Below, piece by piece: positions 20,505 to 60,189 of a stretch of 64,000 bases of DNA; the stretch's first letter is position 1, and the number at the start of each line of letters is the position of its first letter. A program made the translations under genes and the position numbers. The stretch lies in contig SVER01000007.1 in the NCBI GenBank assembly GCA_015057315.1, forward strand, positions 1 to 64,000. Reading direction: 5' to 3'. The stretch comes from Pseudobutyrivibrio ruminis. Lineage in GTDB: Bacteria; Bacillota; Clostridia; Lachnospirales; Lachnospiraceae. The notes under the pieces are model-generated. The model had not been told where the DNA came from. It did not search any database and was given only the letters and a program-made list of their open reading frames with translations.

Positions 20505-20564
20505 TGAAAAATAAAAAAATATTCAAAAAAATGCACCGAATTCATGGTCAGAAAGGTCTTACTT

Positions 20565-21047
20565 ATGAACCAAGAGATGATAGTACGAACATACAGCAAT
20601 ATGGTTTATTCCGTAGCAATGCGGTATGTGAAGAACCCGACAGATGCAGACGATGTGTATGCTGATGTGTTCTATCGATATTTTCGCAGAGAGAGAAGCT
20701 TTGAAAGCGAGGAACATCGCAAGGCTTGGTTACTTAGGGTAACAATTAATTCATCAAAGGACTTCCTCATTAAGCGAAAGTACGAAACAAGCAAAGATGA
20801 TGATATGTTTGATGAGTCTTTAATGTCGGTTACATTTTCAGGTACTGATATATCTCAGGAAGAGATAATGGATGTTAGAAACTCTCTAAAAAGGCTTAAA
20901 GAAGAGCGTAGAGAAGTTTTAGAACTCTATTATTTCAGTGGACTAAACACCAAGGAAATTGCAGATATGCTACAGCGTCCAGAAAATACCATTAAATCAG
21001 AGTTATTACGTGGTAGAAAAGAAATGAAAGAGCATCTACAAAAGTAA
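20565..21047 (+). CDS. ECF-type RNA polymerase sigma factor
   Basis: I place the start at 20565 (MNQEM), after GAAAGG at 20551-20556, giving 160 residues; an ATG at 20544 has no ribosome binding site. Region 2 is MVYSVAMRYVKNPTDADDVYADVFYRYFRR, with the helix that binds core polymerase and melts the -10. Region 4 is LKEERREVLELYYFSGLNTKEIADML followed by the recognition helix. There is no region 1 or 3, as in ECF factors. It heads the secretion-like operon, and probably controls it or the large-protein genes. The regulator that holds it inactive is not obvious; the next small gene is a candidate. Confidence 0.92.
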   Translation: MNQEMIVRTYSNMVYSVAMRYVKNPTDADDVYADVFYRYFRRERSFESEEHRKAWLLRVTINSSKDFLIKRKYETSKDDDMFDESLMSVTFSGTDISQEEIMDVRNSLKRLKEERREVLELYYFSGLNTKEIADMLQRPENTIKSELLRGRKEMKEHLQK

Positions 21048-21058
21048 GAGGAAAATCC

Positions 21059-21280
21059 ATGGATGAGCAAAGAATTGAACAGGTGCTTACATTATTAGGG
21101 AAATGTATCCCCCGGGCACCGGAGCGAACAGTAGAAAAGATGATTAGAACGGTTAAAGAATTGGAAAAACTGCGTCGGGGTACGCAGGATTCTAATGAAA
21201 AACAATTGGAACAACCAAACAATAAGGAATTAGGTGACAAAGGCATCAGCAATCAAGGAATAGGAGGACCAAAGATATGA
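21059..21280 (+). CDS. Small hydrophilic protein after the sigma factor; possible anti-sigma
   Basis: This 73-residue protein has a helical first half (VEKMIRTVKELEKLRR) and a polar, Gly/Asn/Gln-rich tail. It contains no membrane helix and no zinc-binding HxxxCxxC motif, so it is not a classical ECF anti-sigma. It starts 11 bases after the sigma gene and overlaps the pilin gene by four bases (ATGA), which implies translational coupling. Its place directly after an ECF gene makes an anti-sigma or sigma cofactor role possible, but the sequence does not show one. Confidence 0.6.
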   Translation: MDEQRIEQVLTLLGKCIPRAPERTVEKMIRTVKELEKLRRGTQDSNEKQLEQPNNKELGDKGISNQGIGGPKI

Positions 21281-21741
21281 GTATTATGTGTGGTTTAAAT
21301 ATGGTGGCTGCAGCAGCAGTAGAAACAGTAACAGAAGCATCTCAAGTAGCAGTAGAGGTAGTGGAAAATACAGCAACAGCAGTAAATGATGCTGTTAATA
21401 CCGTGGCAAATGCAGCAGTTCCTGTAATTAATACAGTAGCAGTTGGCTCAAATGTGCAAAATATCAGCTTAACAGATGTTACAGCTCCAATCATTTCACT
21501 TATCAACACGATTCTTACAGCAGCTATTCCTCTTGTTGCAGCAGCTGGTAGCTTGTACTGTGTACTGTTAGGAGTTAAATATGCCAGAGCTGAGGAGCCT
21601 CAGGATAGAGAAAAGGCAAAGCAGCACTTAAAGAGCGCCATCATTGGCTTTGTGCTTATTTTCGTACTTATTGTTGCCCTTAGAATTGCAACACCTATCC
21701 TTACAGAGTGGATGAATGCAAACTCAAAGGCTATTCAGTAA
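21277..21741 (+). CDS. VirB2/TrbC-like pilin
   Basis: The 154-residue protein has an Ala/Val-rich N-terminal region and two membrane helices in its second half (IISLINTILTAAIPLVAAAGSLYCVLLG and IIGFVLIFVLIVALRIATPIL). The loop between them, KYARAEEPQDREKAKQHLK, matches the short charged cytoplasmic loop typical of VirB2/TrbC pilins in Gram-positive type IV systems. Such proteins form the pilus or a membrane ring. It is longer at the N-terminus than usual; this Ala-rich part may be removed or extracytoplasmic. It stands first among the machine genes. Confidence 0.75.
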   Translation: MSIMCGLNMVAAAAVETVTEASQVAVEVVENTATAVNDAVNTVANAAVPVINTVAVGSNVQNISLTDVTAPIISLINTILTAAIPLVAAAGSLYCVLLGVKYARAEEPQDREKAKQHLKSAIIGFVLIFVLIVALRIATPILTEWMNANSKAIQ

Positions 21742-21756
21742 GCAAGGAGTGAAGCT

Positions 21757-23460
21757 ATGTCACCAAGGAGAAAGCTAAAAAGAATAATAGCAACTATAGC
21801 GGCACTGGCCTTAGGTATTTGTGTACAGATACCAATTAGTGCCAGTGCCGCTAGTTTTAATCCTATAAATATGCTTCAGGGTGACGATGATGACGATGAG
21901 AAGTCTCCTGAAGTATATGTAGACCCTACTATGTTAGATGATGTCTTTGGCGAAGTAGTGTACTATCGCTGGGACAGAGTATACGAAAATGATTATCCCA
22001 AGGATAACAGGTGGCATATTTCTATGCTTGTGTGGCCTAGGGATGATGGAAAAATAGATGATGGTTATCTAGGTGCCCTGGCTCCAGATGATATATGGAT
22101 GGGGCCTGAGGCAAAGCCTGTTGATGGTGTTACCCATAGTTTTACCAGAGATGACCCTATTTACAAGAAATATTTTAAAGGGAATGGCTCTATTAGTGAG
22201 GGTGGAACATATTACATACGCCTTACAGATAGGGCTGAGGGACTTGATGTGGGAAGCGATCCACAGGTACAGGTATTTAGAGACACTTTCTACACTAACG
22301 ATGACAGGGATTGTCTGTATGTAAAGTATGGAGCCCGTGATGATGACAATGACGGCGTAGATGATAACAGTGCTCCAGTGTACATGATTAAAATGTCCAA
22401 AAGGGCTGATGTAAAAAGAGATTATATTATTCAGCCAGGTCCTGATAGCGATTCAGATGAAAGCTGGATTAAATTTAGAGATGACGAATATGGCTATGGT
22501 TGGACATTTAAATCCAAAAGAATAAAAAACGCAGGCTTGATTTGGCATATATTTCACAACGTAGATGATGATTCCGATGCCAACCTTGCAGTAGGACCAG
22601 GACGAAGATTTTTAACTGCCCGTTCTGATGATGATGACCATGGTTACTACAAATGGTTTATAGGCACTAAGCTTAGGTTTTCTGCAATAACACAGGATGT
22701 TTCCGTAACTGCCGGACAGCTTCTTTCTATTAGTGCCAGCAACTATATAAGCTCAGATGGAGAAGAAGAAAGCCAAAGCGGTGTTATTCTTCCAGGAGGT
22801 AATACTATTACCGTTGAGAAAGGAGGAATCCTTTCTATTAGCGGTGATTTTATTAATAATGGAACTATTATCAACAATGGAGGAACCATTATAGTCCAAA
22901 ATGGTGGAACTATATATCCGTTTCTTCAAGGGGACGATTACAACACACTTGGTTGCGGCTCTATCAAATGTAATAGTGGAGATATAATCGTTGAAAAAGG
23001 CGGCACTATTTACACAGGTATGAACTGTGCCTTAGGTGAAGATAATGTTAAGCAGTCAGCGGTATTTTGGCTTGATAACAGCTCAACGCTTATTAATTAC
23101 GGAACACTGGCCTTTGGGCAGCTTGACATGGGCGAAGCTTCAACCATAGAAAACCGCAGTGGGTCTTATATGTATTCTTGCCTATATGATAAAAATTGGG
23201 ATACATTTGTAGATCAGCTTAGTGACAATAATGGAAAACTTAGCAGTGGTTCAACAGATAACCTTAGATGCCTTGGTTACGTAATGGATGGTGATAAGTA
23301 TACAGGCGGTATAAAGATATTAAATGGTCCTGTAAAGCTTACTAATGTTCCAACAATATATTATGCCCCTGATGCAAAGGAGCATATAAAAAATCCTGAT
23401 GCTAATTGGCAGGATATGGTTAATCAAGGACTTATTGATTTTGGAGAATTAGAACTTTGA
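21757..23460 (+). CDS. Exported acidic protein with beta-solenoid-like repeats
   Basis: This 567-residue protein has a signal peptide (basic start, hydrophobic core, cleavage near ASAAS at about residue 32), so it acts outside the cell. The first 300 residues are very rich in Asp and aromatic residues. Residues ~320-450 contain short repeated strands of the type GG-TI-V--GG-I (TITVEKGGILSISG, GTIIVQNGGTIYP, IIVEKGGTIYTG), as in right-handed beta-helices of surface proteins. No anchor is visible at the C-terminus. It lies between the pilin and the coupling ATPase and its stop overlaps the next start, so it is probably a surface component of the machine. Confidence 0.72.
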   Translation: MSPRRKLKRIIATIAALALGICVQIPISASAASFNPINMLQGDDDDDEKSPEVYVDPTMLDDVFGEVVYYRWDRVYENDYPKDNRWHISMLVWPRDDGKIDDGYLGALAPDDIWMGPEAKPVDGVTHSFTRDDPIYKKYFKGNGSISEGGTYYIRLTDRAEGLDVGSDPQVQVFRDTFYTNDDRDCLYVKYGARDDDNDGVDDNSAPVYMIKMSKRADVKRDYIIQPGPDSDSDESWIKFRDDEYGYGWTFKSKRIKNAGLIWHIFHNVDDDSDANLAVGPGRRFLTARSDDDDHGYYKWFIGTKLRFSAITQDVSVTAGQLLSISASNYISSDGEEESQSGVILPGGNTITVEKGGILSISGDFINNGTIINNGGTIIVQNGGTIYPFLQGDDYNTLGCGSIKCNSGDIIVEKGGTIYTGMNCALGEDNVKQSAVFWLDNSSTLINYGTLAFGQLDMGEASTIENRSGSYMYSCLYDKNWDTFVDQLSDNNGKLSSGSTDNLRCLGYVMDGDKYTGGIKILNGPVKLTNVPTIYYAPDAKEHIKNPDANWQDMVNQGLIDFGELEL

Positions 23461-25475
23461 AAGATTTTTTTAAGAGAATTTTATCACGGTTCAATTTAAT
23501 AAGGATTGCCACTACATTGATTATTTTACTTGTATTGGCAGGGGCTGTAGGCTTTGGCCTTCGCATTTTCGGAGATTATCTAAGCACTCTTACAACAGGA
23601 AAGCCCTTTACTATTGATTTGCTATACATAGTGGAATCAAAGACATGGATAATGGGCGCTTTGGCAGATGTAATAATAGCCATTTTGTACCTGTTATCCA
23701 GCAATAATATGAACAGGCTTTTCAAAAGCAACAAAGATTTGCTTGGTAAGGATGGAAAGGCTGAGATAGTACGTGGCTCCCTTGAAAACAGCCGTTTCTT
23801 AACGGAAAAAGAAAGGGATACCTACTTCCCTGGGGCAGATTATAACGATCTGCAAAGCGTTAAAAAGGATGGAATACCAGTTAGGGCAGTGCTTGATAAG
23901 AAAAATCATTTACAGGTAAATTTTTTATCTGGTGCCCATTCATTAATTATTGGTGCAACTGGTAGTGGTAAAACAACTACATTTATCAATCCGATGATTC
24001 AGTTACTTGCAGCTACCAATTGTGGCAGCTCCATGATTATGACTGACCCTAAGGGTGAGCTTTTTTCACTTCATTCCAAATTTTTGCAGGATAGAGGATA
24101 TGAGGTATTGCTACTGGATTTACGTGATACTTATTCATCTAGCCGATGGAATCCTTTAGGGGATATTTACGATATGTATCAGGATTATGTACATGCTGGC
24201 GAAGGTGTGATTGGACATAGGGATAGCATGGATGATTATCCTGACTTAAAACAGATTGATGGTCCGGCTGAAGAAGATGCCTTCTGGGTTGAGTGGAAGG
24301 GAACAGCCTATGCAGACCCATCCCACTGTCTGGATGATGTTATGGTAAAGAGACAGCAGATATACGATGAAATGTATGAAGACCTTAATGACCTTGTATC
24401 TGTTATCTGCCCTGTAGAAAATCAAAAGGATCCCCTTTGGGAGAAGGGTGCGCGCTCAATTATAATGGCTACCTGTCTTGCTATGTTAGAAGATTCTGAG
24501 GACGAACGCCTTGGAATGACAAAGGATAAATTCAATTTCTTCAATATCAACAAGGCACTGACAAATTCTGAGAATAATTTTGCTACATTGAAGGCTTACT
24601 TTGATGGTAGAAGCACTCTTTCTCAGGCGTATACCCTTTCAAGACAAGTGCTATCTGCAGCTGAGCAGACCATGTCCAGCTATATGTCTATCACCTTTGA
24701 CAAGCTTAATATGTTTAATGATAGAGGACTTTGTGGCCTTACCAGTGCAACAGATGTAGATGCTGCATCCTTTGCTGATAAGCCTACAGCACTGTTTATG
24801 AAAATTCCTGATGAAAAGGATACAAGACATGGCCTTGCAGCAGTATTCATTCTATGTATGTACAAGGCTCTTATCAAGGTGGCTTCAGCAAGAGAGGATT
24901 TATCTCTTCCAAGAAATGTATATTTCATACTTGATGAGTTTGGTAACATGCCTAAGATAGAGAAGTTTGACAAGATGATTACCGTAGGTCGAAGCCGTAA
25001 AATCTGGTTTAACATGGTAGTTCAATCTTACTCACAGCTTTCTAACGTATATGGAAATGAAGTAGCTGACATTGTTAAATCCAACTGTGGTATGAAGATG
25101 TTTATCGGTTCTAATGATATTGGTACCTGCGAGGAGTTTTCTAAGCTTTGCGGTAATATGACAGTAAAGACCACATCTACCTCATCAAGCATTGGTGCCA
25201 AGGAAGGTGATATGAGCTTGTCAGCCCAGACACAGGTTAGACCTCTTATTTATCCATCTGAACTACAGATGCTTAACAATAAAGAATCTACCGGTAATGC
25301 AATAATTGTTACCTTTGGAAATTATCCTCTTAGAACCAAATACACTCCTAGTTATCAGTGCCCATATTATCATATGGGACAAATGGATTTAGGAGAGATT
25401 CGCTCTCACATGTTTAGAGCAGATGATGTTTATTACGATTTGGAAGAAAGAAATGAAATAGTACTGGGAAGCTAG
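23457..25475 (+). CDS. virD4: VirD4/TraG-type coupling ATPase
   Basis: The 672-residue protein has two N-terminal membrane helices and a hexameric ATPase domain. Walker A is GATGSGKT from Gly166, followed by MTDPKGELFSLHS; Walker B is FILDEFGNMPKI with Asp493-Glu494; TVGRSRKIWFNMVVQSYSQL is the conserved sensor region. Coupling proteins choose substrates and bring them to a type IV channel. The start codon is TTG at 23457, overlapping the previous TGA, with GGAG ten bases upstream. An insertion of about 80 residues near 230-310 would fit the all-alpha substrate-recognition domain. No relaxase is encoded nearby, so protein substrates are more likely than DNA. Confidence 0.95.
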   Translation: MKDFFKRILSRFNLIRIATTLIILLVLAGAVGFGLRIFGDYLSTLTTGKPFTIDLLYIVESKTWIMGALADVIIAILYLLSSNNMNRLFKSNKDLLGKDGKAEIVRGSLENSRFLTEKERDTYFPGADYNDLQSVKKDGIPVRAVLDKKNHLQVNFLSGAHSLIIGATGSGKTTTFINPMIQLLAATNCGSSMIMTDPKGELFSLHSKFLQDRGYEVLLLDLRDTYSSSRWNPLGDIYDMYQDYVHAGEGVIGHRDSMDDYPDLKQIDGPAEEDAFWVEWKGTAYADPSHCLDDVMVKRQQIYDEMYEDLNDLVSVICPVENQKDPLWEKGARSIIMATCLAMLEDSEDERLGMTKDKFNFFNINKALTNSENNFATLKAYFDGRSTLSQAYTLSRQVLSAAEQTMSSYMSITFDKLNMFNDRGLCGLTSATDVDAASFADKPTALFMKIPDEKDTRHGLAAVFILCMYKALIKVASAREDLSLPRNVYFILDEFGNMPKIEKFDKMITVGRSRKIWFNMVVQSYSQLSNVYGNEVADIVKSNCGMKMFIGSNDIGTCEEFSKLCGNMTVKTTSTSSSIGAKEGDMSLSAQTQVRPLIYPSELQMLNNKESTGNAIIVTFGNYPLRTKYTPSYQCPYYHMGQMDLGEIRSHMFRADDVYYDLEERNEIVLGS

Positions 25476-25504
25476 TGGATATTCTTAGCAAAGGAGAATC
25501 TTAA

Positions 25505-26446
25505 ATGTTTTTGCTTAGCAGGTTGGTGCTATTGCCTATAATGGCAACAGTGCTTGTATCTCCAAATGTGAATATAGACTACGAAGGCTCGGTAAGTCCT
25601 TATGATGGTTCACCTGTAGAACAGGAGGAAATTACTCAGGTTCAGTTCGTAAAAATACCTGATGGAAGTACCTACGACAGGAACAGCCATACCTTTAATT
25701 ATTCTGTAGCAGGCTACGATGAACCTGTGATTTCGACGGTTGCAAATGGAATGATAGTAACAGACAGTGTATCTGTTACAGTTCCAAATGATATGGAGGC
25801 TGTCCTATATCGTGACGGTGAAAAGCTTACAGGTGTGGATATGGCTGAGATTAAGGATACTGGCAGTTATTCTTTAGTAGCTGCAGGCCTTGAGTCCAAC
25901 AAGCAGGTGCTGTCCTTTGATATTGTTGGAAGTAAAACAGGTAAGATTTCTTCTTACACCCTGCCAGAGGGATTCACTATTCAAAGCGTGATGATTGATG
26001 GTGCCACTCAGGCTCCCAACTACAGCAGAACAGTGGATTTGTCCAAAGAAGGGGATTACGCCATCACATACAGATGTACCTCTACGGCGGTTAATTATAA
26101 CCTGAATGTTTATATAGATCACACTCCTCCAGAGGTGGAGTTCGAAGGGCTTAAAGGGCGTGTGGCTAATGGGCCTGTTAAGATAACAGGAATGCAGGAT
26201 GATTATTACGTAACGGTTATTTTTAATAACGAAGAGGTGAAAGCTCCTTCAAATGGAGAGCTTCGTACAGTAGGTGATTATATGGTTACAGTGTATGATG
26301 ATGCACAAAATTCTGTAACCAAGGAATTTACCATAAGAATGTATTTGAACATGCAAGGCGGAATATTTGTTGGGCTTGCAATAATCCTGATTGCCTCAGC
26401 AGGAACCTATATGTATGTTTCTAGGAAAAGATTGAGGGTGCGTTAG
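25505..26446 (+). CDS. Membrane-anchored extracellular protein with Ig-like segments
   Basis: This 313-residue protein has a short hydrophobic N-terminus (signal or anchor), a beta-rich outer region and a C-terminal membrane helix (IFVGLAIILIASAGTYMYV) followed by a basic tail. The segment around DGEKLTGVDMAEIKDTGSYSLVAAG and the later GPVKITGMQDDYYVTVIFNNEEV look like Ig-type beta-sandwiches of bacterial surface proteins. It should display its domains on the outer face of the membrane. It lies between the coupling ATPase and the VirB6-like gene and is probably part of the outer scaffold of the machine. Confidence 0.72.
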   Translation: MFLLSRLVLLPIMATVLVSPNVNIDYEGSVSPYDGSPVEQEEITQVQFVKIPDGSTYDRNSHTFNYSVAGYDEPVISTVANGMIVTDSVSVTVPNDMEAVLYRDGEKLTGVDMAEIKDTGSYSLVAAGLESNKQVLSFDIVGSKTGKISSYTLPEGFTIQSVMIDGATQAPNYSRTVDLSKEGDYAITYRCTSTAVNYNLNVYIDHTPPEVEFEGLKGRVANGPVKITGMQDDYYVTVIFNNEEVKAPSNGELRTVGDYMVTVYDDAQNSVTKEFTIRMYLNMQGGIFVGLAIILIASAGTYMYVSRKRLRVR

Positions 26447-26447
26447 T

Positions 26448-28334
26448 ATGAGTCTTAACCCAATTGATTGGTTTAAAGAAGGATTAAATTATTTCCTTTA
26501 TAATTTCGTCTATGTTTTGTTTTATTACCTGGAAATAGGAATATGCATGTTCATAGACTGGATTCAGGAGCTGATGGATATTTTTTCGGGAACAGCCCAG
26601 GTTAGCTCTAGTAGTGATTATTTGATAAATATCTTTTTCTCAAACGGGGCTATTACAGGTGTTTATTGGGGAATGGCTGCAATAGGTGTAGTTTTAGCAT
26701 TTCTCTTTGCAATTATTTCTGTTATTAGAAAAACATTCGATTCCTATGAAAAGGTTAAGATGTCCTTTGGACAGATTTTTACAAACCTGCTAAAAAGCAT
26801 ACTTTTGATGCTGGGTTTGAATATTGGAATGTCTGTAATCATCATGGGTACAAACGTATTGATGCAGCAGGTGGTTTACGTGTTTGACCATGCAGATGAG
26901 CTTAGTAACGGGAAAGACAAGATAGAGTTCACAGACGAGCATTATGCTGCTATGGCTAGAATTTTTAACACCATTGGTAATTATTCTTTGAACCCTTCTT
27001 ACAAGAACAGATACAATATTAATTCTTGCTATAACGATATTAGAACTGATTTGAATTATTTGGCAGATCAGGGTGTATTTGATTTCTATTATGAAACAGT
27101 TGATGATAAAAATAATGTGATAGTTACCTGGCAATCTCTGCTTCAGGAAGTTGCTAATGCAGAGGATTATACCAAAGAGATTCCAGTGGATGTATATAAC
27201 GAAGGTGTTTCAAATGCCCTTTATGATGTTATGGATGCATTGAAGAATAATTCATCCATTCCAGTATTGCAGTCTTACGAGAGAATAGAAACACATAATA
27301 GCAGTAAGGTAAAGCTGGGCAAGGTGCTGTTCTTGATTGGAACCATGGGTAATGGAATAGATGCCGCTGCCAAGAATGATGTATATAATGAACACCCTAA
27401 ACTTGATGACCCTGTTAGAGCTCCTTTCTACAGGGAAGTAAAGAATGTATATAAGCTTGGTGATGTAAATAAGTCTTTTGATATAGCTTTGCACAAAACA
27501 AACTATCTCATAGTATATATAGCAGGTGCAATGATGTTATTTAACATGGGTATAGTTATAGTCAATTGTGTTGCGCGTATTTTTAACCTGCTGTTTTTGT
27601 ATGTAATAGCTCCACCTGTATTTGCAGTATTGCCGCTGGATGATGGAGGCAAATTAAAGCAGTGGACCACAGCCTTTTTGGTACAGGCTTTTTCCGTATT
27701 TGCCACAGTGATTTCCATGAGAATATATCTTATATTCTTACCTGTTATCCTTGATCCAGGGCTTACATTATCCCAAAACGTGATTGTGGATATGGTGGGA
27801 CGAGTTATTCTTATTTTTGCAGGTTTGGAAGCTATATCTAAGGCCAATGGTATTCTTACAGGTATTTTGGCTGATAATGCAGGATGGCAGTCTATTTCAG
27901 CTGGTGATATGTCTAATTACTTCAAGGGAAGCCTGGCAGGTTCTATGCTTGCACGTACCACAGCTACTGTTAATAGAACACCTCTAAAGATCTTAGGTGG
28001 TGCCAAGCTATCACATAAGATTACAGGCTCGGGAGATAATAGTAAGTATACTGGAGGCGTCCTTGGATTTGCGATGCGGTTACCAGGAGCATTTACCGGT
28101 CACACAGTCAGTGGAGCTAAAAAGGGTATAAAGGATGATGGCAAGATGATTAACTATATGAAAGGTGGCTCTAATGGTGGTCAAGCATCTGGAGGCGGTG
28201 CTGCTGGAGGCGCTGGTAAAGGATCTTCTGGTGGCGGTGCTGCTGGAGACGCTGGTAGAGGACCTTCTGGTGGTTCTTCGTCAGAAGGCAGGGAAGCAGC
28301 AATTCCGCCACAGCAAAGAAATATGGGTGGTTGA
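26448..28334 (+). CDS. VirB6/TrbL-like polytopic channel protein
   Basis: The 628-residue protein has six or seven membrane helices: two at residues ~10-40 and ~65-90, one at ~115-140, then a set at ~345-480 that includes VNCVARIFNLLFLYVIAPPVF and the nearby DDGGKLKQWTTAFLVQAFSV. That last combination is typical of VirB6/TrbL proteins, which line the inner-membrane channel. A long loop (~150-340) lies between the helix groups. The C-terminal 60 residues are Gly/Ala/Ser-rich and repetitive. It begins one base after the preceding stop and is followed 45 bases later by the VirB4 gene, the usual gene order. Confidence 0.82.
   Translation: MSLNPIDWFKEGLNYFLYNFVYVLFYYLEIGICMFIDWIQELMDIFSGTAQVSSSSDYLINIFFSNGAITGVYWGMAAIGVVLAFLFAIISVIRKTFDSYEKVKMSFGQIFTNLLKSILLMLGLNIGMSVIIMGTNVLMQQVVYVFDHADELSNGKDKIEFTDEHYAAMARIFNTIGNYSLNPSYKNRYNINSCYNDIRTDLNYLADQGVFDFYYETVDDKNNVIVTWQSLLQEVANAEDYTKEIPVDVYNEGVSNALYDVMDALKNNSSIPVLQSYERIETHNSSKVKLGKVLFLIGTMGNGIDAAAKNDVYNEHPKLDDPVRAPFYREVKNVYKLGDVNKSFDIALHKTNYLIVYIAGAMMLFNMGIVIVNCVARIFNLLFLYVIAPPVFAVLPLDDGGKLKQWTTAFLVQAFSVFATVISMRIYLIFLPVILDPGLTLSQNVIVDMVGRVILIFAGLEAISKANGILTGILADNAGWQSISAGDMSNYFKGSLAGSMLARTTATVNRTPLKILGGAKLSHKITGSGDNSKYTGGVLGFAMRLPGAFTGHTVSGAKKGIKDDGKMINYMKGGSNGGQASGGGAAGGAGKGSSGGGAAGDAGRGPSGGSSSEGREAAIPPQQRNMGG
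28194..28271 (+). repeat. 39-base tandem repeat in the VirB6-like gene
   Basis: Two adjacent 39-base units (28194-28232 and 28233-28271) differ at a few positions and code for a GGGAAG-type glycine-rich tail. Unit length is a multiple of three, so copy number can change without frameshift. Confidence 0.8.
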
Positions 28335-28379
28335 TACATTAGTTTGATATTTACTTAGTGATAAACGGTAGGATAAAAC

Positions 28380-32279: not shown

Positions 32280-32282
32280 AAG

Positions 32283-32582
32283 ATGGATATTAAGCTAGTG
32301 GATCGTGGAGAAGAAGGAGAATTAATCCTATCAGGAAAGCTTGATGCTACAAGTGCACCACCTACAGAAGAAGTGTTTATGAAGACAGCAGCAAGATTTA
32401 CTAACATTACACTTAATCTGAAGAATTTACAATATGTGTCTTCAGCAGGACTTCGAGTTATAAAGAGGCTGTATCTAGAGGTAAGGAAAAATGGAGGCGA
32501 GCTTACAGTATGTAATGTTTCGGATTATGTAATGGAAGTGTTTGAGATGATAGGCTTTGCCACCATATTGAATTTTAAGTAG
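32283..32582 (+). CDS. STAS-domain anti-sigma factor antagonist (RsbV/SpoIIAA type)
   Basis: This 99-residue protein is a single STAS domain. The phosphorylation loop is YVSSAGLRVIKR; Ser54 aligns with the Ser that RsbW-type kinases modify. In partner switching the unphosphorylated form binds the kinase and frees its other partner. It begins three bases after the VirB4 stop, so it is made together with the machine. The matching kinase (46053-46454) and two PP2C phosphatases (48882, 50447) are in the same block. The target set free by the switch is not identified. Confidence 0.92.
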   Translation: MDIKLVDRGEEGELILSGKLDATSAPPTEEVFMKTAARFTNITLNLKNLQYVSSAGLRVIKRLYLEVRKNGGELTVCNVSDYVMEVFEMIGFATILNFK

Positions 32583-32617
32583 TAATTGTATGCAGGGGAT
32601 GAGTTAGGGTTTTTACT

Positions 32618-37690: not shown

Positions 37691-37709
37691 TGGGAGGCGC
37701 TGATATTAC

Positions 37710-39031: not shown

Positions 39032-39070
39032 GAGTTTTATAAATAACAAGGGTTTATAAGGAGGGTACTT

Positions 39071-40468: not shown

Positions 40469-40502
40469 TTTTTTGACTGTATAAATATATGGGGGTATAT
40501 CT

Positions 40503-43274: not shown

Positions 43275-43307
43275 ATGATGCTAACATCCGCAGCAAGGAG
43301 GTAATTT

Positions 43308-46049: not shown

Positions 46050-46052
46050 ATA

Positions 46053-46454
46053 GTGGAAGAAATTAGGATTGAGGCATCAATTGAAAATGTGGATAGATTG
46101 ATTTCAATCTTGGATGAAAAACTAGAGAGACAAGACTGCCCTTTTAAAGCACAAATGCAGCTTGATGTTGCTGTGGAGGAAATCTTTGGCAATATATGTC
46201 ATTATGCATATAAGTCTAAAGGTGAAGTGTGTATCCAATTGAGTATTACTGAAGATATGGCACAAATATGTTTTATAGATTCTGGAATTCCATTTAATCC
46301 CCTTAACATAGAAGAATTAGATGTTGTAGAGGTGGCTAAAAGCGAAAAACTGGGTGGTTTGGGGATTATTATGGTTAAGGAAAGTATGGATGATTGTTTC
46401 TATGAGTATAAGGATAATAAAAACTATTTAACCATAACAAAAAGGCTGCTATAA
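46053..46454 (+). CDS. RsbW-like anti-sigma/serine kinase
   Basis: This 133-residue protein is a single GHKL ATPase domain of the RsbW/SpoIIAB type. The N box is AVEEIFGNICHYAY with Asn47, the G1 box DSGIPFNP with Asp76, and the G2 box GGLGIIMVK from Gly101. It should bind ATP, phosphorylate the STAS protein encoded at 32283, and hold another partner when that protein is phosphorylated. The start is a GTG at 46053, three bases after D2. It is embedded among the large-protein genes, 14 kb from the STAS gene. Confidence 0.92.
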   Translation: MEEIRIEASIENVDRLISILDEKLERQDCPFKAQMQLDVAVEEIFGNICHYAYKSKGEVCIQLSITEDMAQICFIDSGIPFNPLNIEELDVVEVAKSEKLGGLGIIMVKESMDDCFYEYKDNKNYLTITKRLL

Positions 46455-46479
46455 GTCGTTTACGTAAGGAGGTTACTAT

Positions 46480-48864: not shown

Positions 48865-48881
48865 AATTCGGTGGAGGCGTT

Positions 48882-50417
48882 ATGGGTGAAGCAGAAAGCA
48901 AAAAGGAAATATTTGACGTAAGTATAAGAACAGTACTGTTTTTATGTCTTGCTCTGCTTGTTCAAATTATAGCAATTAAGAAAGGAACTGAAGGTGTAAA
49001 TCCATTTTTTATTATAAATATAAGCTCTGATGTTACATGTATGCTTGTGGGATATGTGCTGATAATAGGCTTATATATGGATAGGCAAAAGATAGGAACC
49101 ACTACCAGATATTTAGCTGGACTGGTTCTATCTGCCTATGCAGCTTTATTTAGCGATGCTATAGCTTGGATTGTTCAAGATGAACCAGACTATATAACAA
49201 TTAATTATGCAACAAACACTGTTTATTACATTGCAGTTATCTTTGAGGCAATATACTTTTGGCAATATACCTTGACCTATCTAAAGGTAAAAAATAGAAG
49301 AATAAATATAATGAATAAGCTCTTAAATGTGGGCTTTGCTATTAGCTTATTACTGATTTTTCTAAATTTACATTTTGGATTTTATTTTACTGTTAACAGT
49401 AATGGAACCTATATACGAAGTCCATTGTGCGAGCTGTCAATGGTATATTCTTTTCTTGCAATAATTCTTTCATTAACAATAGTTATTATTGAAAGAAAGC
49501 AGTTACAGCCTCTTCAGATTGTTGCATTCTTTTTGTATGCATCAGGACCTATTATGGTTTCTGTTGTTAGTATATTTTTGTTTGGCTTATCCTTGAATCC
49601 ATCTGCTTCTATGATGTCTATTTTACTTATGTACTGCGCACTGAATGTAACAGAAGGAGATAAAAAAGCGATTCAGGATAATGAGGTAAATATTGCCTCC
49701 AGGATGCAGGAAAATATTTTGCCAAAGGCTTTTCCTTATTTACCGGAACGTAAGGAATTTGATATATATGCAATCATGAAACCAGCCAAGGAGGTTGGCG
49801 GGGATTTCTATGATTTCTTTATGGTGGACGACAGTCATTTAGCACTTGTTATTGCAGATGTTTCCGGCAAGGGAATACCCGCAGCATTGTTTATGATGAC
49901 CAGCCGTACCCTGATAAAAAACAGAGTACAGGCAGGGGATGACCTTGCAAAGGCTATGGGTGAAATAAACAATCAGCTTATTGAGGGCAATGGGGCAGAC
50001 CTTTTTATTACTGTATGGATTGGGGTAATAGATTTAAATACAGGTTGGGTGAAGGCAGTAAATGCCGGACACGAATATCCAGCCATTCGAAAGGCTAACG
50101 GAGATTATCAAATCATTAAAGATAAGCATTCTTTAGCAGTTGCTATGTTTGAGGATGTTACCTTTGATGTTACAGATTTTCAAATGCAGCCAGGGGATAG
50201 CATATTTGTCTATACAGACGGGGTTACTGAATCAATGGACGAAAATGACAATCTATTTGGAAAGGAACGTTTGATTCAGGCTCTTAATCGACATCCTGAT
50301 TGTAACCCTAAGGAAGCAATTGATAGTGTGTTAAATGCCATTGCAGTTTTTGTAGATGGAGCAAAGCAATTTGACGATACAACAATGCTTTGTGTGACTT
50401 ATTTTGGTGTGGAGTAG
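48882..50417 (+). CDS. Membrane PP2C-type (SpoIIE/RsbU) phosphatase 1
   Basis: The 511-residue protein has an N-terminal sensor of about six or seven membrane helices (residues ~13-260) and a C-terminal SpoIIE-type PP2C phosphatase domain. Metal-binding and signature stretches are KEVGGDFYDFFMVDD (~303-318), VIADVSGKGIPAALFMM, VNAGHEYP, and FVYTDGVTESMDE; the last QFDDTTMLCV is the usual end of the domain. It should dephosphorylate the STAS protein in response to a signal met by the membrane part. A GTTTRYLAG motif in the sensor is shared with phosphatase 2. Confidence 0.92.
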   Translation: MGEAESKKEIFDVSIRTVLFLCLALLVQIIAIKKGTEGVNPFFIINISSDVTCMLVGYVLIIGLYMDRQKIGTTTRYLAGLVLSAYAALFSDAIAWIVQDEPDYITINYATNTVYYIAVIFEAIYFWQYTLTYLKVKNRRINIMNKLLNVGFAISLLLIFLNLHFGFYFTVNSNGTYIRSPLCELSMVYSFLAIILSLTIVIIERKQLQPLQIVAFFLYASGPIMVSVVSIFLFGLSLNPSASMMSILLMYCALNVTEGDKKAIQDNEVNIASRMQENILPKAFPYLPERKEFDIYAIMKPAKEVGGDFYDFFMVDDSHLALVIADVSGKGIPAALFMMTSRTLIKNRVQAGDDLAKAMGEINNQLIEGNGADLFITVWIGVIDLNTGWVKAVNAGHEYPAIRKANGDYQIIKDKHSLAVAMFEDVTFDVTDFQMQPGDSIFVYTDGVTESMDENDNLFGKERLIQALNRHPDCNPKEAIDSVLNAIAVFVDGAKQFDDTTMLCVTYFGVE

Positions 50418-50446
50418 CACAAAAATATGTGCAGTTGGAGGAAATT

Positions 50447-51979
50447 ATGCCAAAGGCCTTAATCAGAAAGAAATTATGGATTGCTGTAGTTGGGACAGTC
50501 ATTTCTTTGGGACTGACTATTTTTGTGTCTCAGTTTGCCTATCATATCGGGTTTGAAAATCTGCCTCCTATTTCTGTTATCAATATCACCCTTGATATAG
50601 TTGGAATGTTAATTGCTGTTATAACAATGATAGGGCTATATCTCGACAAAAGAAAGACAGGAACAACTACCAGGTATTTAGCAGGTATAATCATTATCAC
50701 TTATATCATGCTTCTAACAGATTCTATTGAATATATAATGGATGGAATAACAGAGTATCGCTCCTTTAATATGTTTGTTACCGTATTATATTATATGACT
50801 ATTCCGGCCGAGGGCGTTATGTTCTGGCATTATACGATAAATTATCTTAAGATGCAAAAGAAAAGGCTTCACAAACTAAACTGTGTGATTGAAGCATTTT
50901 TTCTACTTGCTTTAATAATCAGACTTCTAAATATCAAGTATCCTATCTATTTTTACATCAACGAAATGGGGGAGTATCATAGAACTCCATATTATGCAAT
51001 TTCAAAGGTATTCTTTTTGGCCATTAGTACACTTACTTTAGTGGTAATTATGTCAAAGAGAAAACAGTTTAGGTTTATTCAACTAATAGCTGTATTTATT
51101 TATGCTATTGGGCCTATTGCAATAGGTATTATTACTATAACCCAACATTACATTTCTGCCACACCAATAGTGACAATGATTGCTACCCTTTTTATGTATT
51201 GTTTTCTAAATGTTACCCAGGGGCGAGAACATGCAGTTGCCGAGCATGAAATGTCCATTGCTGCGTCGATTCAGGAAAATGTTCTTCCAAAGGCTTTTCC
51301 ATATTTGCCAGATAGAAAGGAATTTGAACTGTATGCTGTTATGAAGCCTGCCAAGGAAGTGGGCGGGGACTTTTATGACTTTTTCATGGTAGATGATAAT
51401 CAATTGGCACTTGTTATTGCTGATGTTTCCGGTAAGGGAATACCTGCGGCTTTGTTTATGATGACCAGCCGTACGCTTATCAAAAACAGAATGCAGGCAG
51501 GTGGTGATTTGGCTAATATTATGTGTGATATTAACAATCAGCTGTGCGAAGGTAATATTGCTGATTTGTTTATTACTGTGTGGGTTGCAGTAATCGATTT
51601 GCAAACAGGTCATGGTATAGCCATAAATGCTGGACATGAAAATCCTATTATAAGGCGAGGAAATGGTGAGTATGAAAGCGTATTTTATAAGCATGACCTA
51701 GCTATTGCTATGGTTCCTGATGCTAAGTTTCATAAGCGTGAATTTGAACTTAACCCGGGAGATAGGATATTTGTATTTACAGATGGTGTAACAGAGGCTA
51801 TGAATCTTCAAGAAGAATTGTTTGGTAGCAAGCGCCTGCTTGCAGTTCTTAATGCTAATAAATCCTGTTCTCCAAAGGGCTCAATAGAAAAAGTCTATAG
51901 TGCTGTAGAAAGCTTTATGGATGGAACAGAGCAATTTGATGATACAACCATGCTTTGTGTTGACTATAACGGTTTGTAA
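50447..51979 (+). CDS. Membrane PP2C-type (SpoIIE/RsbU) phosphatase 2
   Basis: The start is the ATG at 50447, after TTGGAGGAAATT, which gives 510 residues; an upstream ATG at 50390 overlaps the previous gene and lacks a site. Layout and length are the same as in phosphatase 1: a multi-helix membrane sensor with GTTTRYLAG, then a PP2C domain with KEVGGDFYDFFMVDD, ADVSGKGIPAALF, INAGHENP and FVFTDGVTEAM. The catalytic domains are very alike while the sensors differ more, which fits a tandem duplication giving two signal inputs to one STAS target. Confidence 0.92.
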   Translation: MPKALIRKKLWIAVVGTVISLGLTIFVSQFAYHIGFENLPPISVINITLDIVGMLIAVITMIGLYLDKRKTGTTTRYLAGIIIITYIMLLTDSIEYIMDGITEYRSFNMFVTVLYYMTIPAEGVMFWHYTINYLKMQKKRLHKLNCVIEAFFLLALIIRLLNIKYPIYFYINEMGEYHRTPYYAISKVFFLAISTLTLVVIMSKRKQFRFIQLIAVFIYAIGPIAIGIITITQHYISATPIVTMIATLFMYCFLNVTQGREHAVAEHEMSIAASIQENVLPKAFPYLPDRKEFELYAVMKPAKEVGGDFYDFFMVDDNQLALVIADVSGKGIPAALFMMTSRTLIKNRMQAGGDLANIMCDINNQLCEGNIADLFITVWVAVIDLQTGHGIAINAGHENPIIRRGNGEYESVFYKHDLAIAMVPDAKFHKREFELNPGDRIFVFTDGVTEAMNLQEELFGSKRLLAVLNANKSCSPKGSIEKVYSAVESFMDGTEQFDDTTMLCVDYNGL

Positions 51980-52074
51980 TGTGGTGCTTCTCGATTTTAT
52001 TTCACAAAAAAATCATAAAGATAAAACATTTATAATTTATTATGAAACCACATTTTATAATGGGGGGTAAGAGT

Positions 52075-55000
52075 ATGCAACAACATTATAATTATAAAGA
52101 TGTAAAGTGGAAAGAACTAAAAACACAATCTGAAAAGAATGTTCAACAAGAACAAAATATTGGATTAAACCTGCAACAGAATATGAATATGCAGGAGAAT
52201 GTTGCTGCAAACAAAGAATCTGCTGTTGATTTTGATAAGAAACTGGTTAACAAGAAAATTTTGGATGAATTTAAAGAAGTTGCAGTTAAAGTAGGCCAAA
52301 CAGGGGATGATCTACTTAACCTATTGAAAACTGGTAAAGAGGATACAGCTGCAGGAATGCAGCTGTTTGATGCAATTGATAATGTTAAAAGTATTTTTAA
52401 TAGTTATAAAGAGGCGGATGTTTTAAAAGAAGCTAATAAAGAAGACAATAAACAAGAAGAGAACAGGCAAGTGGATTATGATAAAATTACCATAGGAACT
52501 ATTGTAGAAGCTATGGTACGTCTTTCTGAGTGTTCAAACGCTTATTATGATACTCATCGTGGCAAAAAATTCTTCAGTAATAATAGGCGCAAACAATTGG
52601 CAAAGGATTTTGTTAAGACATCTAACAGCTTTTTTGTGAAAACCAATCTAGTTATGGGGAAGCCTAAGAACAGTCCGGCTGTGCCTCCTGTTAATACATT
52701 AAAAAATAATTATCTACATAATAAAAAACTAGTGGACAAAAGGCTGGAAAAGCTCGCAGATGTTTACAAACAATGGGGAAAGAAATTAGGGGAAGAAGAG
52801 TGTAATGAAAGACAACGAATTGAAAAGAAAAGAAATCTATTTAAACCCTATGAAAACGATATTTTAATGTATCGGTCTGTCCGTAAAGTAGGCGATAATA
52901 AACTGATAGATAAAATCCTTAATGTATATGATGAATATCGTATGAAGGATGATATGCTTAATCGCTTAGAAAAGGTTCAAGATATTAAAGATAAACTTAG
53001 TGATCCTGTGGCGGAGTATCTTAAAGAGGAAGAGGCTAGGGAAAATGAAAGAGATAGGGAAGTAACTCTGTCTAATGAGCAGATGGACGCAGATCTAACA
53101 GATGAACAGCTAAGGGGAATTGAGGAATGTGATAAATTCTTCCTTAGGAATTTTCAAAACAAGGGTGTTTTTGGCTCAGTTGTAGGTATAAGAAATCAGC
53201 ATGATGAGATTATTAGCAAGCTTATGTCTATGTCTAAGCGTGAGAGGATGTTTATATATTATTTAATAGAGACTAGTGCAAGACACAAACCTCAGATATA
53301 TGATGTATATGCATCTCAGTTTGAATATGTTCCTAATTATAGTGAGCTGCGGGGTAAGATAAAGAAGACTCCTTTTAAAGTGATTTCTCACATGACAGGC
53401 AATTATGTAAATATGTATAAACTAACGGAAGCTATGCAAATTGTCCGTGATTATAAGGGAGTGTTAGAAACTACTGCAACTATTAAACAAGATGTTGCAA
53501 AGGCACAACAAAAGCGTGCACAACAGAAAGCGGAAGAGGATAGTGGTGCCTTAGTATTCCGAAATGAAGAAGAAAGAGTAAAAAATTTAATAGATGGTAG
53601 AAAGAATCTTCTTTCTGAGTTTATACTGGCAAACATAGAATATAAGAAATGTTTAGAAAAAGCTCTTAAAAATAAGAAGAAAAGTATAGCTCCCCAACTT
53701 AAAAATGAACTTACAATAGCCGGAAAACGCTGCGAAGCAGTAAGAAAAGAGCTTTTCGCGGCTGATGATGAATTAAAGCATGTTAAGGTTGTGGCAGATG
53801 AGAATGCCAATGCCAACGCAAACGCAAATGCCAACGCTAATGCCAATGCTAACGCTAATGCAAATGCCAACGCTAATGAAGAAGTAAAATATGATTCAGA
53901 ACTTAAATTATCTAATTCATCAGCCCCTCATACAACTAATTATAAAGAATTTACGAGTTATACTAAGGAAACCTTAAAATGGTCTAAAGATGCGAATAAA
54001 ATTAGTTCTAAGGTTCTTAAAGAATTTGGCCAAAGCTGGGGGCTTAGTGAAAGTGGACTAAAAGATTATAAATATGGTGCCAGTATTACTGGAGATGCGC
54101 TTACAGTATTTAGTTCCCTGCTTTCTGCTGTGTGCGGTTTTTCGGATCTAGCTAAGAACCATGCTAATATGCACTGGGGAGATTTTTTCTCTACTATTGT
54201 AAGTTCAACAAATAGTGTGGGAACTACAGGACTTAGTGTTGCTAAAATAACTGATACAGGAGTGCAAATATTCAAAGGGACCACAGAGACCATGGCCACT
54301 GGGGTTCTTAAAAATATAGGTACTGCCACTGCTGCTGTTTCATTAGGAGTTAATGGTTATAAAGCAATTTCTGGAGGAATTGATTATTTTTATAATTGTA
54401 CCAATGCTCAAAAGGCGTTTGACAAGAAAGAGAAAAAACATAGAGACACTATTACACAACTTGAAGGAAAGCAAGATAAAACCGAGGCTGAACAAAAACA
54501 GCTTGCTAAGCTTAAGCGAGAAAAAAGATACGACCAGAGTATGGCAAAACTCGTTGAAAAGCTTGGTAAACTTAAGGTTATGACAGCTACTGCTAATACT
54601 GTGATTAGTGGTTTGGCCTTAGCCAGCAATTTTGTACCTGGAATAGGACAAGCATTTATGGCAGTATTTTTGTTGGCTGGTGGTATTGGCGTATCCATAA
54701 GTGAAGCAAAGCGGCTGCGAGGTATTCGAAAAGAATTGTTCGATGACTTCATGGAAATGGGCAAAGTATCTCAGCAAGCAGACACTCTTTTGCAAACGAA
54801 GAAGCGTACAATTTATAAGAAAGATAAATATGATGAAAATCTTAGAAGAAAAATGGCGGCTGTTGCAGGCTATGCAGACATGAATTCAGCGGCAGACCAG
54901 ATTTGCAAAAAATTTGGAAGTTATGTATATAATAAATTATTCGCTTCCGTTGATGATGGAGGGGCTGAAGCTGAAGAAAAGAAGGCTTATATACAAATGG

Positions 55001-55083
55001 TAAAGGCATTGGGCTTGCCGTATGATAGTAAGAAGAAGATTCCACAAGAACATGTTATAGCAAGAAAACTCGCAGGTAAATAA
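52075..55083 (+). CDS. Large protein E with NA repeat and hydrophobic C-terminal region
   Basis: I start at 52075, behind GGGGGG at 52062-52067, giving 1002 residues. The first 570 residues are charged helix with coiled-coil character. At residues ~577-601 there are twelve Asn-Ala dipeptides. The C-terminal 400 residues include Gly/Ala/Thr-rich hydrophobic segments (TTGLSVAKITDTGVQIFKG, NVISGLALASNFVPGIGQAF, MAVFLLAGGIGVSI) broken by a Lys/Glu coil. These could insert into a membrane, as in translocators or pore-forming effectors. There is no signal peptide. The tail is basic and ends RKLAGK, unlike other large proteins here. The small gene behind it may encode its chaperone. Confidence 0.75.
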   Translation: MQQHYNYKDVKWKELKTQSEKNVQQEQNIGLNLQQNMNMQENVAANKESAVDFDKKLVNKKILDEFKEVAVKVGQTGDDLLNLLKTGKEDTAAGMQLFDAIDNVKSIFNSYKEADVLKEANKEDNKQEENRQVDYDKITIGTIVEAMVRLSECSNAYYDTHRGKKFFSNNRRKQLAKDFVKTSNSFFVKTNLVMGKPKNSPAVPPVNTLKNNYLHNKKLVDKRLEKLADVYKQWGKKLGEEECNERQRIEKKRNLFKPYENDILMYRSVRKVGDNKLIDKILNVYDEYRMKDDMLNRLEKVQDIKDKLSDPVAEYLKEEEARENERDREVTLSNEQMDADLTDEQLRGIEECDKFFLRNFQNKGVFGSVVGIRNQHDEIISKLMSMSKRERMFIYYLIETSARHKPQIYDVYASQFEYVPNYSELRGKIKKTPFKVISHMTGNYVNMYKLTEAMQIVRDYKGVLETTATIKQDVAKAQQKRAQQKAEEDSGALVFRNEEERVKNLIDGRKNLLSEFILANIEYKKCLEKALKNKKKSIAPQLKNELTIAGKRCEAVRKELFAADDELKHVKVVADENANANANANANANANANANANANANEEVKYDSELKLSNSSAPHTTNYKEFTSYTKETLKWSKDANKISSKVLKEFGQSWGLSESGLKDYKYGASITGDALTVFSSLLSAVCGFSDLAKNHANMHWGDFFSTIVSSTNSVGTTGLSVAKITDTGVQIFKGTTETMATGVLKNIGTATAAVSLGVNGYKAISGGIDYFYNCTNAQKAFDKKEKKHRDTITQLEGKQDKTEAEQKQLAKLKREKRYDQSMAKLVEKLGKLKVMTATANTVISGLALASNFVPGIGQAFMAVFLLAGGIGVSISEAKRLRGIRKELFDDFMEMGKVSQQADTLLQTKKRTIYKKDKYDENLRRKMAAVAGYADMNSAADQICKKFGSYVYNKLFASVDDGGAEAEEKKAYIQMVKALGLPYDSKKKIPQEHVIARKLAGK
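53803..53877 (+). repeat. Hexanucleotide repeat coding for Asn-Ala units
   Basis: Twelve units of AAY-GCN, with mixed codons, run from 53803 to 53874 and one further AAT follows. Unit length of six keeps the frame. The mixed codon use means that selection maintains the dipeptide and that the repeat is not a recent pure slippage product. Confidence 0.9.
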
Positions 55084-55098
55084 TAAGGAGGATAAAAA

Positions 55099-55647
55099 AT
55101 GAACGTCAAAGAATTGGAAAAGATGAGACATGAGATATTAGTGCAGATTTTGGATGATTTGACAGAAGAATTTTTTGCAGCCAATCTTAGCGAGAAGGAA
55201 AAAGAGGAAGATGTGGAGGTATTAAGGGTTATTTTTGATGACATGGGCTATGAAACTGGGTTAGATGCTATGGGTGAGTATGCATTTTTGCCAATTCATA
55301 CCACAGAGGATGAAGTACAGTATTTTTCTTCTGCTATTATCATTGCGGACACTATCGAAAAGCAGAATCTTCCTAAGCTATATGAGGCTATGTCAATTCT
55401 TAATTTCTATATGCAATGTGGCGCTTATTGTATAGACAAGGATAAACAGGTATTGGCATATAAGCTGACAACACCACTGCCTATAGGTCTTTCTAAGGAG
55501 GATTTGTATCAGCAGGTAAATATATGCATGGGTAATTCGGTTGCTGTTACAGATCAGTATTGCGATTTAATACTTCGTGTTAATGAGGGCTCACTTGATA
55601 TTCCGGATATGCTTAATGAGCTTGGTATCTATGAAGAAAATTCTTAA
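55099..55647 (+). CDS. YbjN-like small acidic protein; possible secretion chaperone
   Basis: The 182-residue acidic protein has an alpha/beta layout with strands at YAFLPIHTTEDEVQYFSSAII and CGAYCIDKDKQVLAYKLTTPLP, then a helix and a terminal NEGSLDIPDMLNELG. The pattern is like YbjN, whose fold resembles type III secretion chaperones. This is a weak visual match. It follows gene E by 15 bases behind a good AAGGAGG site. Small acidic proteins encoded straight after an effector gene are often its dedicated chaperone, which is the most useful hypothesis here. Confidence 0.6.
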   Translation: MNVKELEKMRHEILVQILDDLTEEFFAANLSEKEKEEDVEVLRVIFDDMGYETGLDAMGEYAFLPIHTTEDEVQYFSSAIIIADTIEKQNLPKLYEAMSILNFYMQCGAYCIDKDKQVLAYKLTTPLPIGLSKEDLYQQVNICMGNSVAVTDQYCDLILRVNEGSLDIPDMLNELGIYEENS

Positions 55648-60169: not shown

Positions 60170-60189
60170 GTACTGCTTTATTTGGGGAC

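Follow-up and report, generated by a model that had tools for sequence, protein, structure and literature searches.

A type IV secretion-like island of Pseudobutyrivibrio ruminis, a probable dedicated protein-translocating system

The stretch under study comprises bases 1-64000 of contig C38 (111,895 bases; GenBank contig SVER01000007.1) of a 3.42-Mb genome of Pseudobutyrivibrio ruminis (GCA_015057315.1) and is called the window below. Its locus is labelled W; genomes are labelled G and contigs C, each with a number. It was found that the window contains an island (16060-60103) in which genes of a type IV secretion system (T4SS) stand together with a partner-switching module and genes for large proteins lacking signal peptides. 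Judged from the sequences, it is probable that the island encodes a dedicated protein-translocating T4SS of a Gram-positive bacterium, which would be controlled by the partner switch and would have the large proteins as its effectors. An earlier note on this DNA had also taken a dedicated protein-export machine to be the best fit, and the analysis supported this, export itself being inferred. The reading is based on the gene content of the island, on a gene order shared with relatives, on a VirB4 group separate from conjugative VirB4s, and on relaxase searches that recognised none near the machine. In addition, two of the large-protein families occurred only in genomes bearing the machine, the large proteins diverged fast, and in the genus their C-terminal tails had a distinctive composition.

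The island genes are on the plus strand, with a spacing of mostly less than 65 bases. The block had earlier been placed at 20565..55647, which proved too small, and a toxin-antitoxin-like pair carries the end of the island on to 61689. The flanking genes are an aminotransferase gene at 14574 and proC at 61745, both named by eye from translations. The 26 proteins of 16060-61689 were scanned with Pfam at E values up to 1; a 73-residue open reading frame (ORF) and other short ORFs stood outside the scan. The features are listed below, with families found by iterated hidden Markov models (HMMs) where stated.

16060..18258, +, E1, 732 residues, family E1/E794 (candidate substrate); 28% identity to E794, 10-member family by iterated HMM
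18281..20338, +, E2, 685 residues, family E2/E975 (candidate substrate); iterated HMM family
20347..20442, +, terminator-like hairpin followed by a non-coding element that precedes the machine operon and is conserved in three species
20544..21047, +, ECF sigma factor; Pfam Sigma70_r2 and r4_2, 83-87% identity in G258 and G274
21059..21277, +, small ORF of 73 residues between sigma factor and pilin, C-terminus GGPKI; similar DNA in G258 and G274
21277..21741, +, VirB2-like pilin; Pfam T4SS_pilin PF18895 at 4.2e-11, over cut-off, 8 pilins aligned
21757..23460, +, SP567, exported machine protein (predicted); 12-member family, hydrophobic N-terminus
23457..25475, +, VirD4 coupling ATPase; PF02534 at 2.8e-52 and TraG-D_C at 3.3e-32, over cut-offs
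25505..26446, +, TM313, predicted exported, with C-terminal hydrophobic segment; 24-member machine-only family, Ig-like matches below cut-off
26448..28334, +, VirB6-like membrane protein; NF045848 at 8.2e-41 (over cut-off), NF045889 at 5.3e-29
28380..32279, +, VirB4 ATPase with N-terminal hydrophobic stretch; P-loop_TraG PF19044 at 2.4e-20 (over cut-off), solved VirB4-like ATPase 4ag5 at 1.6e-49, and tree
32283..32582, +, STAS protein (anti-anti-sigma type); PF01740 at 3.6e-15
32618..37690, +, SP1690, large machine protein, predicted exported; 12-member machine-only family, hydrophobic N-terminus
37710..38516, +, TM268, N-terminal hydrophobic anchor and outer domain (topology by eye); 8-member machine-only family
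38513..39031, +, D172, conserved component; 8-member machine-only family
39071..40468, +, GZ465, one inner hydrophobic stretch and a substrate-like tail; 3-member genus family, glycine-zipper matches below cut-off
40503..43274, +, E923, family E923/E913 (candidate substrate)
43308..46049, +, E913, family E923/E913 (candidate substrate)
46053..46454, +, RsbW-type HATPase (anti-sigma kinase type); PF13581 at 9.5e-20
46480..48864, +, E794, family E1/E794 (candidate substrate)
48882..50417, +, PP2Ca, SpoIIE/PP2C phosphatase with hydrophobic N-terminal half; PF07228 at 2.4e-47
50390..51979, +, PP2Cb, SpoIIE/PP2C phosphatase with hydrophobic N-terminal half; PF07228 at 2.5e-48
52042..55083, +, E1013, large protein whose place in the substrate set is uncertain; no relatives among the fetched loci
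55099..55647, +, D182, small protein right after E1013 (15-base gap); no profile match
57176..60103, +, E975, family E2/E975 (candidate substrate, without tail)

VirB4, VirD4, VirB6 and the VirB2 pilin were all recognised by profile as members of the T4SS superfamily, in agreement with the canonical set named in the earlier note. Of the PrgI part ascribed to VirB4 there, only a hydrophobic stretch at the N-terminus was evident, with PF12666 (PrgI) not among the Pfam matches of the island protein; in a control, a conjugative VirB4 of the congener G153 matched PF12666 at 3.9e-24. The profiles of TM268 and TM313 gave no significant structure relative, no VirB8 structure being found with that of TM268, and a PLAT match of SP1690 (20.6 bits) was below cut-off. 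By iterated profiles, the SP567, TM313, SP1690, TM268, D172, pilin, VirB6, STAS, HATPase and PP2C families were present in machine loci. The same ten families were absent from all 7 conjugative or conjugative-like loci, though the VirB4 and VirD4 profiles matched there. The pilin is retained across distant loci (39-70% identity, 8 aligned), and SP567 and SP1690 were each found in 12 of the 16 loci of type A, the remaining four being cut at or near that place. These observations would also suit a surface organelle, such as a pilus or an adhesive scaffold, of which the large proteins would be non-exported cytoplasmic assembly or regulatory partners. Nevertheless, the VirD4 coupling protein is retained, and the behaviour of the large families described below argues against such partners.

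The distribution of the machine was followed in samples of 397 genomes of the same family, 29 of the genus and 391 of the class. Many of the relatives are draft genomes, and absence near the machine means absence on the machine's own contig. Counting the present one, 4 of the 29 genus genomes carried a VirB4 of the island family (G258 77%, G274 77% and G153 78% identity), whereas the other VirB4s listed for the genus, which are conjugative, were only 21-30% identical to it. A rumen metagenome-assembled genome named 'Lachnospiraceae bacterium' had a VirB4 of 75% identity. Among the 397 same-family genomes, 22 passed E 1e-60, of which 21 had identities of at least 52%; the remaining one (G162, 29%) was classed as conjugative-like and not as a machine. 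In G153 and G258 the genes followed the same order: pilin, SP567, VirD4, TM313, VirB6, VirB4, STAS, SP1690, TM268, D172, GZ465, E-proteins, HATPase, E794, PP2Ca and PP2Cb. Machine components could likewise be mapped in other genera, and the recurrence of a gene set in identical order elsewhere implies more than a chance arrangement. The machine proteins of congeners were 55-90% identical (VirD4 84-87%, VirB4 about 80%), with the exception of TM268 (41%).

A tree built from 43 VirB4 rows separated the 7 that are conjugative or conjugative-like from the other 36 (support 97/98). The 16 type-A rows formed one group (100/100), but the 8 type-B rows did not. Several conjugative rows were long-branched, so that their exact placement is unsure. 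In one locus (L062, G357:C2:180574-184704) the VirB4 frame was broken by a TAG and had been called as two ORFs. Two ORFs downstream of the island (window 62623-64000) had counterparts of 60-70% identity ~12 kb upstream of the G258 island (L050-L051), indicating that the two islands flank a related stretch of chromosome from opposite sides.

The class-wide search found related VirB4s in 14 of the 391 genomes, reaching beyond the family and in a partly different setting; these were kept outside the claim. A family of genomes within the class that are very small (G428, G466, G688, G590, G521 and G702; 0.8-1.2 Mb, 98-100% complete) had VirB4s 43-45% identical to that of the island (loci L148-L149, L146-L147, L150-L151, L159-L162 and L142-L143). 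The ORF next after VirB4 ranged in length from 3,086 residues, where a contig end truncates it, to 3,602. In G428 this ORF had no Pfam match and was succeeded by the genes for the beta and beta' subunits of RNA polymerase; a trypsin/PDZ protease gene lay on the opposite side, as did uvrA and uvrB.

Genes for DNA transfer were sought in the island and around the related machines. Among the 26 island proteins scanned, no match to relaxase, mobilisation, integrase, partition or wall-hydrolase families was obtained, which bears out the earlier statement that the block holds no relaxase, integrase or partition gene. No serine recombinase was found in these protein scans, the only place where it was sought. 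The scans were controlled with 8 proteins of a conjugative element of the genus (G153:C16), of which VirD4, TrbL/VirB6, PrgI-VirB4, NlpC/P60, CD1107, NikA/MobC and relaxase were recognised; NikA/MobC and the wall hydrolase (VirB1-like) were thus present in the control and absent from the island scans. In a search of the whole genome, PF03432, PF03389 and PF02486 had no match anywhere; Mob_Pre (PF01076) was matched twice, both times off the contig of the island and with low scores (28.7 and 28.4 bits against a cut-off of 25.5).

The same four relaxase families were searched in 18 genomes (17 machine genomes and G162); G147, G355, G359, G048, G063 and G369, with only 4.9-8.7 kb around VirB4, stood outside these searches. 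PF03432 was matched in 9 of the 18 genomes, PF03389 in 2, PF02486 in none and PF01076 in 8. PF03432 was wholly absent from G000, G258, G274, G074, G160, G120, G215, G075 and G161. In none of the 17 machine genomes was a member of the four families found within 300 kb of the machine on its own contig. Relaxases on machine contigs occurred only in G046, which is a single contig (nearest PF03432 ~340 kb off), and in G388 (PF03389 ~320 kb off). A relaxase just outside the window or in all related loci, which the earlier note had named among the findings that would overturn its reading, was not encountered for these four families. The search detects relaxases where they are present: G153 has two conjugative VirB4s, and a PF03432 gene was located ~3 kb from each of them. 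Tyrosine integrases (PF00589) occurred somewhere in all 18 genomes, the 5 matches of the present one being off contig C38, and the conjugative-like locus of G162 has such an integrase beside VirD4.

It could be supposed that the island still transfers DNA by means of a relaxase that escaped recognition, that it is of common stock with the integrative and conjugative elements (ICEs) of mycoplasmas, and that the large proteins serve in transfer or exclusion. The nearest NCBIfam models, Mbov_0395 pilin, Mbov_0396 and Mbov_0397 VirB4, come from mycoplasma ICEs; the ICE of Mycoplasma agalactiae moves DNA and encodes a DDE transposase, according to the available passages of PMC6030558. The pilin and VirB6 scored over the cut-offs of the mycoplasma models, and VirD4 over that of the conjugal CD1115 model (299.5 vs 250 bits). 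VirB4, however, stayed under the NF045975 cut-off (546.6 vs 590 bits). In 13 machine genomes the listing was complete (G000, G153, G258, G274, G002, G357, G074, G160, G120, G245, G215, G075 and G161), and none of these had a tyrosine integrase on the contig of the machine; the large families are multi-copy, variable between loci and devoid of a pair of invariant histidines. VirB4 was matched by 2,137 plasmid records, all with less than 60% identity; the 15 best-ranked had 26-31%, and the top ones were from Spiroplasma. On these grounds DNA transfer was considered unlikely. The idea that known plasmids or phages carry the system was abandoned, since no close VirB4 was present among their records. 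TM313 had no match on 72,556 plasmids at E 0.001, and E794 had no plasmid match. The lack of relaxase and integrase nearby might also point to the remnant of a decayed conjugative element. But the frames are open, the gene order is retained and VirB4 is conserved in three congeners and many genera, which makes decay very improbable.

Eight large proteins of the island are without signal peptides, and three paralogue pairs were recognised among them (E1/E794, E2/E975 and E923/E913); E1/E794 and E923/E913 were unrelated by profile comparison. None of 20 large proteins of the genus had a hydrophobic N-terminus, and inner hydrophobic stretches were seen in GZ465 and E1013. Searches with Pfam, PHROGs, NCBIfam, PADLOC and solved structures gave no function for the large window proteins submitted, and no enzyme domain was recognised in those of the window. 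In the middle of E1013, Asn and Ala alternate over a long run, and it may be guessed that D182 is its chaperone or immunity partner. The large proteins and GZ465 were 26-41% identical to their congener counterparts, some over partial length, compared with 84-87% for VirD4, demonstrating that the candidate cargo families diverge faster than the machine.

Co-occurrence of the large proteins with the machine had been proposed as a check, and two families were confined, in the genomes sampled, to machine-bearing ones. In a single-sequence search with E794, 5 of 250 genomes were matched, and all five bore the machine. Among the 397 same-family genomes, the E1/E794 profile was positive in 7 and the E923/E913 profile in 6, all of them machine-bearing (probability by chance 4e-10 and 1e-8). 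One genome of each list, G160 for E1/E794 and G357 for E923/E913, was found only with the bias filter of HMMER switched off; with the default filter the counts were 6 of 6 and 5 of 5 (1e-8 and 2.5e-7). Outside the genus and the profile rows, the counts were 3 of 3 for the E794 search (1.4e-4), 2 of 2 for E1/E794 (1.6e-3) and 3 of 3 for E923/E913 (8e-5), and with strict filters 1 of 1 and 2 of 2 for the two profiles (0.04 and 0.002). Some members lay off the machine's contig, firmly at G002:C50, G160:C18 and G161:C48, and tentatively, with the bias filter off only, at G160:C7, G161:C33, G357:C1 and G357:C3 (3e-12 to 5e-8) and G160:C20 (8e-16). This dispersal of at least two members (G002, G160) is unlike usual assembly factors. 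Together with the variation of the families in number and identity and their divergence far faster than that of the machine, it suggests that a surface organelle with cytoplasmic partners is also an unlikely explanation. On G357:C1, three proteins of 1,066-1,468 residues adjoin a fused PP2C-HATPase protein of 878 residues (L167:13863-16499; G357:C1:243863-246499), on a contig other than that of the machine.

Machine-linked large proteins of G002 and G357 contained PI3/PI4-kinase stretches (1.2e-9, over cut-off; 1.6e-4, below) and Fam20C-like stretches (0.0004-0.0015, below cut-off), with copies of the motif seen directly. Such stretches are a hint that these proteins may be enzymes which use ATP and would work within a cell. 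Only 22 bases separate E1 from E2, 34 separate GZ465 from E923 and 33 separate E923 from E913, too few for immunity genes, which is a mild argument against a set of antibacterial toxins.

The last 20 residues of 27 family proteins were rich in N, P, Q and G (fraction 0.341), compared with 0.185 in 336 controls and 21% in 124 machine proteins. The controls were other proteins of at least 300 residues encoded in the fetched loci; ORFs truncated at the end of a contig or stretch were omitted from the tail tests. The Mann-Whitney probabilities were 1e-8 against controls and 1e-5 against machine proteins; these values are too small, because the rows share kinship. Taken family by family, each of the four multi-member families exceeded the controls (p 0.0004 to 0.008). 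In the genus alone the tail value was 0.385 (20 proteins, 8.7e-9), with 0.193 at residues 120 to 100 from the end. The C-terminal residue was I, L, M or V in 16 of the 20 genus proteins and in 75 of the 336 controls, and a Met-Pro start was found in 18 of the 27 family proteins and in 14 of the 336 controls. A homology-free test outside the genus, with ORFs of low hydrophobicity and at least 550 residues, gave 0.298 for 29 ORFs near type-A machines and 0.174 for 21 background ORFs (p 0.003). The N/P/Q/G-rich tail is a candidate recognition signal.

The PP2C phosphatases, the HATPase kinase and the STAS antagonist were recognised together by profile as a partner-switching module. STAS is located between VirB4 and SP1690, and the HATPase and PP2C genes are among the large-protein genes. 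At least one switch gene was linked to the machine in 14 of 24 loci, and all three types in 8, some loci being cut short. An ECF sigma factor was linked only in W, G258, G274 and G120, and the non-coding element preceding the operon was conserved in W, G258 and G153. The target of the switch could be the ECF sigma factor or the machine itself. A two-box promoter motif was tried as a regulon signal in 16 upstream regions and rejected: its top count was 3, compared with 2 in each of 20 shuffles, and was attributed to one conserved leader rather than a regulon motif.

We propose that VirB4, VirB6 and the pilin, together with SP567, TM313, SP1690 and TM268, would build a conduit through the envelope. 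VirD4 would recruit the signal-less E1/E794, E2/E975, E923/E913 and GZ465 proteins, probably by reading their N/P/Q/G-rich C-terminal tails, and the ATPases would drive the recruited proteins outward. Upon a signal, the partner switch (two PP2C proteins, HATPase kinase and STAS, possibly with the ECF sigma factor) would turn on expression or activity. The proteins might be delivered to a second bacterium, to a protozoon or fungus, or into the medium.

Several observations weigh against this proposal. Since the nearest models and the best plasmid matches come from DNA-moving elements, to read the island as a protein-only system is to claim loss and re-use. In drafts, whose contigs are unplaced relative to each other, a relaxase could lie beyond a contig end, and in G046 an integrase lies ~19 kb from the locus. 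No wall hydrolase that could account for the passage of cargo through the wall was found in the island scans. The pilin profile matched in just 13 of 24 loci. Only 10 of the 21 machine genomes (9 with strict filters) carry either of the two large-protein families and 11 (12) carry neither, so that on absence of these families from most relatives, the other finding named beforehand as adverse, the proposal did not clearly pass. The cargo-negative genomes are partly short contigs, yet include the well-assembled G120, G215, G075 and G111. As to the tails, seven members outside the genus reached only 0.214 vs 0.185 (p 0.054), long controls (83 of at least 600 residues) attained 0.222, and E975 and E1013 are without a tail. 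In the homology-free test, 12 of the 29 rows were one G002 run, and some rows may not be genes.

Dedicated effector T4SSs of the Dot/Icm and Xanthomonas type use a coupling protein, C-terminal recognition and many effectors, and are diderm machines; the system proposed here would resemble them in the outline of its working. The Bordetella BtrUVW partner switch has PP2C, HATPase and STAS parts. So does the Rsb switch of Chlamydia, in the available passages of PMC11619594. The switch of the island, unlike these two, is embedded in a T4SS locus.

Whether T4SSs of Gram-positive bacteria became dedicated effector translocators is described as a long-standing question in the available part of a 2025 review (PMC12857230). 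The 89K system of Streptococcus suis, which secretes SspA-1, is there apparently the first Gram-positive effector translocator. It is like the island in being a Gram-positive T4SS with VirD4, VirB4 and VirB6, and protein export is reported for it; by the description in that source, on which the comparison is based, it has VirB1, VirB3 and VirB8 in addition. The island differs from 89K by its pilin, its partner switch, its linked large-protein families and the machine-only proteins predicted to be exported. The T4SSs of Patescibacteria, likened here by description, are those of monoderms with VirB2-like pilins and mostly without relaxase, PF18895 being among the profiles used for them (PMC12102498, available passages). 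They belong to another phylum, and one case described in the same review has six pilins (PMC12857230). In the passages available, PMC12102498 states that major pilin genes are lacking in Gram-positive T4SS classes; in contrast, the island keeps a pilin. The conjugative T4SS of the genus (G153:C16) shares VirD4, VirB4 and TrbL/VirB6 with the island, but its VirB4 is only 27% identical, and its relaxase, NikA/MobC, NlpC/P60, CD1107 and PrgI match were not found in the island.

The novelty ascribed to the system in the earlier note held in part. No published description of such a system was found in the literature searched, with subscription papers and preprints outside its reach; S. suis 89K and the Patescibacteria are, in the passages available (PMC12857230, PMC12102498), Gram-positive precedents. 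The island is thus a candidate for a new form of a known kind of machine, namely a protein-exporting version of an apparatus that is known in Gram-positives almost only for DNA.

Two further observations concern the downstream part of the island. A phosphofructokinase gene (55739-56968) lies within it, between D182 and E975. The pair at window 60148-61689 consists of a gene whose MqsR-like match (0.017) is below cut-off and a gene that resembles antitoxins of MqsA/HTH/SocA-Panacea type.

The machine family was found in about one in twenty of the same-family genomes sampled (21 of 397). With named genes, conjugative T4SSs of the same genus as negative control, candidate substrates and a candidate signal, the question of Gram-positive translocators becomes directly testable in commensals. 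A wider reading, which is doubtful at present, is that a T4SS lineage of the Clostridia has passed wholly beyond conjugation to regulated effector delivery. Its members would often bear a pilus, and their fast-evolving, partly dispersed effectors of 600 to 1,900 residues, some of them lipid- or protein-kinase-like, would be read by C-terminal tails and would do their work within a target cell in rumen or gut. If dedicated protein translocation is true, the island would represent an effector system of gut and rumen bacteria that has so far gone unnoticed.

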